Below are positions 4,880 to 8,151 of a stretch of 46,459 nucleotides of DNA, in pieces. Position numbers and translations under genes: made by a program. The notes beneath the pieces were generated by a model. It searched no databases. It was given only the letters and a program-made list of their open reading frames with translations, and had not been told where the DNA came from. Each line of letters opens with the position of its first letter. The first letter of the stretch is position 1. The DNA is from an uncultured bacterium (lineage in GTDB: Bacteria > Bacteroidota > Bacteroidia > Chitinophagales > CAIODY01), in NCBI GenBank assembly GCA_903857255.1, contig CAIODY010000118.1:1-46459 (forward strand), written 5' to 3'.

Positions 4880-5509
4880 ATGTCAAACATCAATTGGGAA
4901 AAAGAAATTCAGCCATTGCTGAAGAAATATAAAACCACGGCTCATCCACTTAGTTACAACAACTTGTACGAACTATTAGTAAAAGTGGTGCTTTCAGCGC
5001 AGGATTCGGATAAGAACATCAACAAAATTGCACCTGAATTATTTGCTGCTTTCCCTGACATGAAAGCCTTGTCAAAAGCCACAGAAGAAACTTTGATTCC
5101 ATTCATCAGTAAAGTGAGAAATTTTGGTAACAAGGCAAAATGGTTGGTGGGCATTGCGCAACAAATCAAGGACAATAAAAATATTCCACTCACCATGGAA
5201 GGATTGACAGCACTTTCGGGCATTGGCAGAAAATCTGCGAATGTGATTCGCCGTGAAGCTGGCGAAAAACCCGAAGGCATAATTATTGATTTGCATGTGG
5301 TTCGTGTGGCGCCCCGATTAGGCATTACTAAAAATGAAAAACCAGAAAAAATTGAAAAAGATTTGATGGCAGTTCTTCCTCAAAAAGATTGGGATGCCGG
5401 CATGGCGATTTCTTTTTTAGGCAGAGAAATTTGCCGCCCAACCAATCCTGATTGCGCCAATTGCCCGATGAATAAGGTGTGTGAGTATTTTAAAATGAAC
5501 TTGAAATAA
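4880..5509 (+). CDS. nth: Endonuclease III (DNA glycosylase/AP lyase)
   Basis: 209 residues, base-excision repair enzyme for oxidised pyrimidines. The helix-hairpin-helix LSGIGRKSANVI carries the presumed catalytic lysine (K118); the catalytic Asp is D137 in IIIDLHVVRV. A [4Fe-4S] cluster loop is present with C185, C192, C195 and C201 in the canonical C-X6-C-X2-C-X5-C spacing. The family usually has D-T-H at the Asp site; here it is D-L-H, a minor departure. It faces the dehydrogenase gene convergently, with 9 nt between the stops and no terminator visible. Confidence 0.95.
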   Translation: MSNINWEKEIQPLLKKYKTTAHPLSYNNLYELLVKVVLSAQDSDKNINKIAPELFAAFPDMKALSKATEETLIPFISKVRNFGNKAKWLVGIAQQIKDNKNIPLTMEGLTALSGIGRKSANVIRREAGEKPEGIIIDLHVVRVAPRLGITKNEKPEKIEKDLMAVLPQKDWDAGMAISFLGREICRPTNPDCANCPMNKVCEYFKMNLK

Positions 5510-6312: not shown

Positions 6313-6953
6313 TTAGTCCAAAATATGAATGTAAAAAACGGTGTCGATAAAGAAAAGCATGTTTGAATTTACGATTACATTTTCATCATGCATATCTTCT
6401 TAAATGATTCTTAATTCAGCATTGTAGTAATCATTTCTTTTTGTGTTTTTGAAACCATTAAACTCCAATATTTTCTTCACATCTTTCAAATCAACAGCAG
6501 AATCTGAAACGATGAAAGGTTGCTTCAATACTGCATATAAATCATCATTCGCTTTTTTGAATCCAAGCAATTCATAAGCAGTAAGTTCAAATAAAGTATT
6601 GTGAATAAGCAAGCTGTTGAAAAAATCTAACCATGTGTTGTAGTAGATTGCATCATTAAATTTCACAACGCTTTTATTGTCGTTGCCAAAATAAATTTTC
6701 GCTTCACCGCCCTCTGTTAAATAACGCTCTTCGGAAATTTTTTCCGCAAGCCAAAGATTATTGGCTTCAATAAATTCGATTAAAAATTGTTTCTGCTCTT
6801 CTTTAATTCTGGAGTGATGCTCGAAGTTTTTTTCAATTTTTGTATTTGTGCTAAAGCTTCGGCATAAGTGATTTCTAACTGTTGTGATAACACTTTGCGG
6901 CTCTGTAATGACAACTCCTTGAATGATATTTTTAATAATTGTTCTGGAATCAT
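6313..6953 (-). pseudogene. Decayed kinase-like gene of the polyvalent-protein kinase type
   Basis: The gene can be rebuilt by hand. It starts at the ATG at 6953 (MIPEQLLKISFKELS...) and runs in one frame to about 6802, where loss of one A on the coding strand shifts it. It continues in the frame with EANNLWLAEK, TEGGEAKIYF, VVKFNDAIYYNTWLDFFNSL and AVLKQPFI, meets an in-frame TAA at 6400-6402, and then resumes without a shift as EDMHDENVIVNSNMLFFIDT to a stop at 6313. HDEN and FIDT sit where kinase-like folds have the catalytic loop and the metal-binding Asp. The similarity to the Kinase-PolyVal family (kinase-like domains of mobile-element polyvalent proteins) is from memory of the motifs. 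The longer uninterrupted frame reaching 7083 starts with a TTG inside a repeat and is not the natural start. One indel plus one stop argues for a real pseudogene. Confidence 0.75.
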
Positions 6954-6968
6954 GATTATTCATTTCTA

Positions 6969-6976
6969 CAAAATTA
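6969..6976 (-). promoter_or_regulatory. -7 box of the decayed kinase gene
   Basis: On the minus strand this reads TAATTTTG, an exact TAnnTTTG match ending 15 nt before the ATG at 6953. It supports that ATG as the original start and suggests the gene was recently functional. Confidence 0.45.
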
Positions 6977-7071
6977 CGAAAATATTTTGCTTTAGAAAAA
7001 CGAGTATTTGGATTGCACACGAGCGAAGCAAACTGATGAACGCCATAAAAAATATTATTTTGTGAAGAAAT

Positions 7072-7188
7072 CCGATTCAGCAACCACCCTGCAAATCCCG
7101 TGCGGCCGGATTATAAATCATTAGCTCATAAGTTCCGAAACTTCGGAACGGATTACAAATCCGATTCAGCAAATCCGCTGCGGCTGGT
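7072..7188. repeat. Cluster of REP-like palindromes
   Basis: The region holds two copies of CCGATTCAGCAA (7072-7083 and 7161-7172), each followed by a related GC-rich tail ending GTGCGGCCGG or CTGCGGCTGG. Between them is an 8-bp palindrome GTTCCGAA/TTCGGAAC with a 2-nt spacer (7132-7149) and a 6-bp palindrome CGGATT/AATCCG with a 3-nt spacer (7149-7163). It is much richer in GC than its surroundings. GGATTTGTAATCC-type words recur as dispersed repeats in Bacteroidota and resemble REP/RAYT-mobilised sequences; no transposase is present here. Confidence 0.65.
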
Positions 7189-7190
7189 CA

Positions 7191-7289
7191 ATAAAAAACA
7201 TTGTTGTAAAACCTAGATTTGAAGATGATGCAAAAAAATTGATTAGAGAAAATAATTTAGAAAATTGCGAATTAATAGTTGTAGAGTAA
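7191..7289 (+). pseudogene. C-terminal remnant of a lost gene
   Basis: An open frame of 32 codons ends at TAA 7287-7289 and has protein-like composition (IKNIVVKPRFEDDAKKLIRE...LIVVE). It begins directly at the edge of the REP-like cluster, has no start codon and is followed by a strong terminator. It therefore looks like the tail of a gene whose body was removed. I cannot identify the family. A weaker stretch ending IKNIIL upstream (to 7065) might be the other side of the break, but that is speculative. Confidence 0.4.
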
Positions 7290-7917: not shown

Positions 7918-8151
7918 GTGCCACAACCTGTAACAAAATCACAACAAAAGACACTCAAAAAATTGGGTGAACGGGTTAATGCAATTCGCAAAGAAAAGGG
8001 CTTAACGCTTGAACAGGTCGCATTTGAGATTGGTAAAGACAGGCAATCAATTCATCGATTGGAAAAAGGAAATTTCAATCCATCTTATTTATACTTATTG
8101 GATGTTTGTAAAGGATTGGGCATAGAATTATCTGACTTGATGAAAGAGTAA
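7918..8151 (+). CDS. XRE-family helix-turn-helix transcriptional regulator
   Basis: 77 residues, a lone HTH_3/Cro-CI DNA-binding domain from about residue 15 to 75. The two recognition helices lie in LTLEQVAFEIGKDRQSIHRLEKG, after a basic N-terminus. The start is GTG; no ATG is available in frame. Size and lack of an effector domain match phage-type or restriction-modification controller regulators, but no such partner genes are adjacent. The palindrome immediately upstream suggests autoregulation. Confidence 0.85.
   Translation: MPQPVTKSQQKTLKKLGERVNAIRKEKGLTLEQVAFEIGKDRQSIHRLEKGNFNPSYLYLLDVCKGLGIELSDLMKE

Follow-up and report, generated by a model that had tools for sequence, protein, structure and literature searches.

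Here we asked whether a kinase gene in a Bacteroidota genome is simply a broken gene, as two apparent lesions had suggested, or whether part of the seeming damage is the mark of a second gene carried in another frame of the same DNA. The window, by which we mean the whole stretch of 46,459 nucleotides that was analysed, had been described in the initial annotation as holding a polyvalent-type kinase gene left by mobile or accessory DNA, starting with an ATG at 6953 and recently broken by one missing base near 6802-6804 and by an in-frame stop codon. The features that the argument requires are these:

6313-6963, minus strand: stand-alone Kinase-PolyVal gene, interrupted by a stop codon, with a PF18762 match, uninterrupted in two genomes of the same genus
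6400-6402, minus strand: in-frame TAA cutting the kinase short of its catalytic motif, absent from the two sister genomes and outside the small ORF
6379-6390, minus strand: HDEN catalytic-loop motif of the kinase, past the stop, aligned with relatives
6340-6351, minus strand: FIDT motif of the kinase, past the stop, aligned with relatives
6780-6953, minus strand: intact, stop-free overlapping ORF of 57 amino acids in the +1 frame, within the 5' part of the kinase gene (profile A1, E = 1.5e-17)
6969-6976, minus strand: TAATTTTG, fitting TAnnTTTG, 5 nt before the kinase ATG and 15 nt before the small-ORF ATG
7071-7195, no strand assigned: short repeat cluster of low copy number, earlier called REP-like

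The identity of the kinase was upheld by the profile search, in which, with one TAA read through, PF18762 (Kinase-PolyVal) matched 6325-6804 of the minus strand at 204.8 bits, the match covering positions 1-159 of a 160-position profile and the curated cut-off being 27 bits; the intact protein of a sister genome scored 209 bits. Kinase-PolyVal has been described as a protein kinase lacking the usual C-terminal subdomain, and stand-alone versions in Bacteroidetes have already been reported (Iyer et al. 2017, PMC5512222). Two features given there for the family, a glutamate before strand 2 and a conserved glutamine in the last N-lobe strand, were equated by eye with E87 and Q148, both of which are invariant in our alignment of eight kinase sequences. 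The stop announced near 6400 is present at 6400-6402 and the HDEN and FIDT motifs do lie beyond it in the kinase frame, so that the present product, 187 amino acids long where the gene runs for 216 codons to its native stop, ends short of the catalytic loop and lacks both sets of phosphotransfer residues. Comparison of the locus in close relatives yielded intact kinase copies in the same place in two genomes of the same genus (L002/L004 and L003/L005), with both motifs in frame, and past selection on the kinase frame, as had been claimed, is supported. The window differs from these two genomes at 5 and 9 of 651 bases, none of them within the small ORF, and since the TAA is lacking in both of these near-identical sisters it is either recent or an assembly error; the description of the gene as recently broken holds to that extent. 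A broken kinase by itself is ordinary.

The missing base fared differently. The kinase frame is unbroken from an ATG at 6963 through 6800 without any gap relative to its relatives, and the 849 bases aligned with two relatives of the same genus contain zero gaps, which rules out an indel in the kinase gene. The ATG at 6953, formerly taken as the kinase start, opens instead a separate overlapping ORF, which begins 10 nt into the kinase gene. This small ORF (MIPEQLLKISFKELSLQSRKVLSQQLEITYAEALAQIQKLKKTSSITPELKKSRNNF from the ATG at 6953, with its stop codon at 6780-6782) is nucleotide-identical across three genomes of the genus of the window and conserved in further Bacteroidota. The apparent deletion arose because the frame of the small ORF was read as the kinase N-terminus, which forced a switch of frame; an overlapping gene can thus pass for a frameshift.

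Neither did the attribution to mobile DNA find support. The window kinase is not part of a large multi-domain polyvalent protein on a mobile element, being a stand-alone gene of 216 codons. Its relatives were sought in plasmid, phage and viral-contig collections and none was found, the viral scan consisting of two peptide patterns only, and none was found for the small protein in the plasmid and phage collections. As to the repeat cluster labelled REP-like, a search of its genome at E ≤ 1e-3 gave one further partial match (39 bases). The reading as a polyvalent kinase of a mobile element, damaged by both an indel and a stop, would account for the PF18762 membership and the in-frame stop, but we give next to no credence to it, given a continuous frame that aligns gap-free with its relatives, a kinase next to one and the same SDR gene in all three of the genomes compared within the genus, and the fact that no relative was found in the phage, plasmid and viral collections. 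Between the kinase locus and a gene that looks polA-like by eye there is a short ORF (7918-8151, plus strand; KLGERVNAIRKEKGLTLEQVAFEIGKDRQSIHRLEKG...), likewise judged by eye to resemble a helix-turn-helix regulator, and a small gene of similar appearance also adjoins the kinase in loci L140 and L142 of the genus that we label g20. No Rfam family was detected at gathering scores between positions 5000 and 9000 of the window.

To examine both frames on a wider basis we drew PF18762 loci from a phylum sample, where 12 of 395 genomes had a match, and from genus g20, where 57 of 249 genomes did, and added four more from a genome collection, two of them duplicates. L004 and L005 were left out because they duplicate L002 and L003, L019-L021 because they repeat split hits, and L069 (from genome G558) because its gene is the same as L006. 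Neither G522, whose 20 bits fall under the cut-off, nor G349/L018, with 53 bits over profile positions 77-159, was counted as a full member, and at this second, partial and remote match, one of the 12 from the phylum sample, the small-ORF profile gave no match. The case of G558 deserves a separate remark: it is placed in g20 and its kinase gene is identical at 651 of 651 bases to that of L006, which lies on a contig of the same length titled Lentimicrobium sp.; the gene shared by L069 and L006 resembles the Chitinophagales type, so that a conflict of binning or labelling is likely.

In each of the 67 non-redundant loci that were tabulated, the kinase gene is overlapped at its 5' end by a stop-free small ORF of 47-60 amino acids, and among these loci we found no full-length PF18762 kinase without it. 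It begins with ATG in 66 of them; at L009, where the kinase is broken too, the codon at the usual start is none of ATG, GTG and TTG. Its frame is +1 relative to the kinase match in 62 of the 67, the other five being cases of a shifted or split kinase or of a remnant. Searches with the small-ORF profile, which read through stops and count them, gave 72 copies in 71 of the 249 g20 genomes with 0 internal stops (profile A1), and copies in 14 of the 395 phylum-sample genomes, none with a stop. In L126 (G176) the small ORF continues in frame downstream into a 242-aa open frame, where a deletion is probable.

Synonymous codons were redrawn in 60 of the 67 rows; of those left out, five differed in relative frame and two carried a stop within the overlap. 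When the small ORF was kept, the kinase frame stayed open with a median probability of 0.0027, and when the kinase was kept the small frame stayed open with a median probability of 0.076. Synonymous differences told the same story. The kinase-frame pS inside the overlap was 0.234 in g20 (42 loci, all pairs), and in 250 sampled pairs it was 0.24 in the overlap compared with 0.62-0.74 in 40 of 40 downstream windows of equal length. The contrast was weaker in the 41 closest pairs (0.33 in the overlap against 0.48), a set whose rows had not been realigned and in which two rows stood one codon out of register, as judged by inspecting the starts. After realignment of codons (39 loci, 741 pairs) the overlap gave pS values of 0.03, 0.13, 0.17, 0.19 and 0.21 by divergence class, against 0.25, 0.51, 0.61, 0.70 and 0.78 for the kinase in the same classes, the suppression being present in every one of them. 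In steps of 10 codons (39 loci) the kinase pS was 0.09-0.37 at codons 1-50 and 0.55-0.78 thereafter, so the suppression spans the overlap of about 50 codons and stops at the end of the small ORF. Pairwise identity averaged 61% in the small protein and 65% in the kinase domain; within the overlap, the kinase frame averaged 46%.

The fate of the two frames after damage provides a second kind of evidence. The kinase is broken in 14 of 55 g20 loci, in which the small ORF is stop-free, and mapping the label broken onto the tree requires at least 11 changes on the starred branches. Sixteen g20 copies of the small ORF have no PF18762 match, and within the overlap they carry 46 stops in what was the kinase frame and 0 in the small frame; 12 of the 16 have at least two such stops, L108 and L119 have one, and L106 and L115 have none. 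For the 12 kinase-less loci with at least two stops, the small frame had a dN/dS of 0.23 and the dead frame one of 2.10. In a clade of nine kinase-less copies, whose tree support of 91/97 is weak because only 49 columns were available, the small frame gave 0.16, the former kinase frame 1.94 and the third frame 1.38. The kinase is lost while the small ORF is kept, and not the reverse, with the reservation that kinase-less copies were found by similarity to the small ORF, that decayed small ORFs may be missed and that the small ORF of L009 lacks a usual start. The window itself is in line with this, its kinase being silenced by a stop (unless this is an assembly error) and its small ORF untouched. 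In both of the kinase-less loci examined for it, a protein of about 90 amino acids (THRDVVPSVINFLSDELFEGDY...) is encoded directly upstream of the solitary small ORF on the same strand; the copy in L145 had no match in Pfam or PADLOC. The positions are:

L144, 3912-4190, minus strand: protein of about 90 amino acids beside the solitary small ORF
L145, 3320-3589, plus strand: protein of about 90 amino acids beside the solitary small ORF

Taking together the codon redraw, the suppression of pS and the dN/dS of solitary copies, chance openness of the second frame is ruled out. On these substitution patterns it is close to certain that the overlapping small gene is real, and the same evidence shows that the kinase and the small ORF both encode proteins and that each is under selection at this one locus. 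The overlapping gene is conserved and, as far as our searches reach, apparently undescribed: the literature search, covering titles and abstract openings and few subscription journals, returned no paper describing this overlap or an out-of-frame nested antitoxin here. To our knowledge, out-of-frame nested genes in cellular bacteria are seldom backed by evidence of such kinds, namely a sharp-edged suppression of synonymous change and solitary copies that keep one frame and serve as a natural control.

Both genes could be read from a single promoter. The box at 6969-6976 fits TAnnTTTG, which we take to be the -7 promoter element of Bacteroidota, and such a box lies at most 70 nt upstream of the small-ORF start in 45 of 50 related loci compared with 7% at random positions; it is also present in 8 of the 16 kinase-less copies. 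The box that the initial annotation proposed is thus present, and its role as a promoter is presumed. A kinase ATG precedes the small-ORF start by 4-22 nt in 46 of 50 uninterrupted loci, with only GTG or TTG in the other 4. One could suppose that a programmed -1 frameshift fuses the small ORF to the kinase in one protein, since the small ORF ends just within the kinase domain and a shift of -1 leads from its frame into that of the kinase. A canonical slippery heptamer was found within the last 12 codons in only 16 of 50 loci, however, and this lack of conservation rules out programmed frameshifting as a general explanation; with a kinase frame whose N-terminus is conserved and which starts upstream by itself, and solitary small ORFs selected independently, we regard such a fusion as extremely improbable.

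Whether the TAA at 6400 is instead an error of assembly or sequencing, the window kinase being intact, is a question of more limited reach. The source genome is a draft in 134 contigs, and of the other four private differences of the window three are synonymous, both of which are compatible with an error. Against it, the 14 broken g20 loci include assemblies of 1-3 contigs (G421, G622, G567), and we hold an error to be very unlikely; the finding of the overlapping gene is in any case independent of the TAA being real.

Searches of families and structures place the small protein apart. Its consensus over 20 members is approximately MNYKISFQERAKLxMExLSKQxPVTLExARxQAQxLKxxSxSKxKKQR, and its structural model shows two longer helices and a basic tail (mean pLDDT 70.8, pTM 0.31). 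None of the 20 members exceeded a Pfam cut-off, the best match being to a NirdL-like HTH (E 0.012, 15.7 bits against 27). For two members NCBIfam gave at best E 0.07, PADLOC nothing and PHROGs at best E 0.039, none of them convincing, and no match was found in the PDB (best E 0.2). By these comparisons the small protein is outside the known DNA-binding or antitoxin families in Pfam (20 members) and PADLOC (two members). The kinase, for its part, had no HipA hit in Pfam, no profile match in the PDB and, like the small protein, no match in PADLOC; a PDB fold search with its AlphaFold2 model gave no hit at E ≤ 0.001, but this model, built on a four-row alignment, is too poor (pLDDT 49.7) for the search to be informative.

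The neighbourhoods of these loci were inspected with PADLOC families. A match (E ≤ 1e-10) was present among the three largest neighbours in 4 of 8 neighbourhoods (24 proteins), a small sample in which the choice of the first ten proteins was made by eye and preceded the planning of the control; three of the six loci with a kinase and one of the two kinase-less ones contributed, and the families were Gabija, Avs4, SIR2/ThsA-like and CARF6. Control regions gave matches in 2 of 10 (28 proteins), to a subtilase model and to a model of RtcR-type regulators, which we judged to be generic rather than specific to defence. The other four neighbourhoods had no PADLOC-matching neighbour, and one of them sits in a heme operon: the pair of kinase and small ORF of G412 (L143:3387-4013) has a hemC-like gene (by eye) on one side and hemD (PF02602) on the other, in what appears to be a heme biosynthesis operon. 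One may then think of an anti-phage module acting by abortive infection, in which the small protein would be a regulator or trigger of the kinase and not a classical antitoxin. The excess of such large neighbours over the control regions, the patchy distribution and the frequent breakage of the kinase would agree with it. With so few neighbourhoods sampled, half of them lacking such a neighbour, and neither protein matching PADLOC, we consider this clearly unlikely.

A better-surviving alternative is that the small gene is real and has a cellular role of its own rather than that of an antitoxin, the kinase being separate or auxiliary and often dispensable. The clade of nine kinase-free copies under purifying selection, solitary copies that fit an independent function, and a small protein without match to antitoxin families would all be expected in such a scenario. 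Less easily accommodated are the want of any full-length PF18762 kinase free of the small ORF among the loci tabulated, the patchiness of the small gene (71 of 249 g20 genomes), which is unlike that of a core gene, and the one-sidedness of the loss; we therefore view this alternative as somewhat unlikely.

A toxin whose antidote is a separate protein would be expected to leave such one-sided decay, and we accordingly propose the kinase as the toxic effector and the small protein as its antidote. That the locus is a toxin-antitoxin-like pair, with a candidate antitoxin nested out of frame in a putative toxin gene, is in our opinion an evenly balanced proposition, and an antitoxin role of the small protein is the leading explanation, which we infer from the one-sided decay and from the small sample of defence neighbours. 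Two genes share one stretch of DNA and probably one promoter, one for a minimal kinase and one for a small protein of about 50-57 amino acids, encoded in the +1 frame across roughly the first 50 kinase codons. Ribosomes choosing between starts 4-22 nt apart behind a short leader could make both products from one mRNA, and ambiguous initiation of overlapping frames has been reported in E. coli (PMC9841429). The kinase would most likely be an intracellular toxin that inhibits growth or aborts infection, and the nested protein would counteract it. The kinase is repeatedly lost and the small gene kept, presumably owing to the cost of the kinase; a toxin can be dispensed with, whereas the antidote could not be lost as long as the toxin lives, and in one clade the small gene has apparently long been kept alone.

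We advance more tentatively, and at somewhat less than an even chance, the full form of this proposal: a natural toxin-antitoxin or abortive-infection module whose antitoxin gene would lie wholly inside the toxin gene in another frame, the small protein representing a new family that also occurs solitarily, where it perhaps protects the cell from kinase copies that arrive from outside. If toxin and antitoxin frames are indeed nested, many mutations would strike the two genes together. For the Kinase-PolyVal family, which is poorly understood, the finding would supply a partner protein and a directly testable role.

Placing the locus among known systems, the window kinase belongs to the same domain family as the Kinase-PolyVal of PMC5512222, of which the excerpt used here mentions no overlapping gene, while in our locus the part encoding the N-terminus also encodes, in another frame, a second conserved protein. 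Kinase-PolyVal domains occur in large polyvalent proteins, whereas the window kinase is a free-standing gene. HipA and HipBST kinase toxins likewise combine a protein kinase with an apparent partner protein, but the kinase studied here has no HipA match in Pfam and no profile match in the PDB, and its partner is nested in another frame. Among type II toxin-antitoxin modules there are some whose genes overlap, for example those in the mqsRA order discussed in PMC10098735; they resemble our locus in having two small genes under one promoter, of which the toxin-like one is more easily lost and the antitoxin-like one kept. The overlaps in that account join the ends of consecutive genes, whereas here the whole small gene is inside the toxin-like gene. 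The synthetic 'entangled' toxin genes, as presented in the excerpt of PMC10359631, share with our locus a gene that is wholly contained in a second one but read in a different frame, with a toxin gene (a putative one here) in the pair, and with the difference that those were engineered and the locus in the window is natural and conserved.
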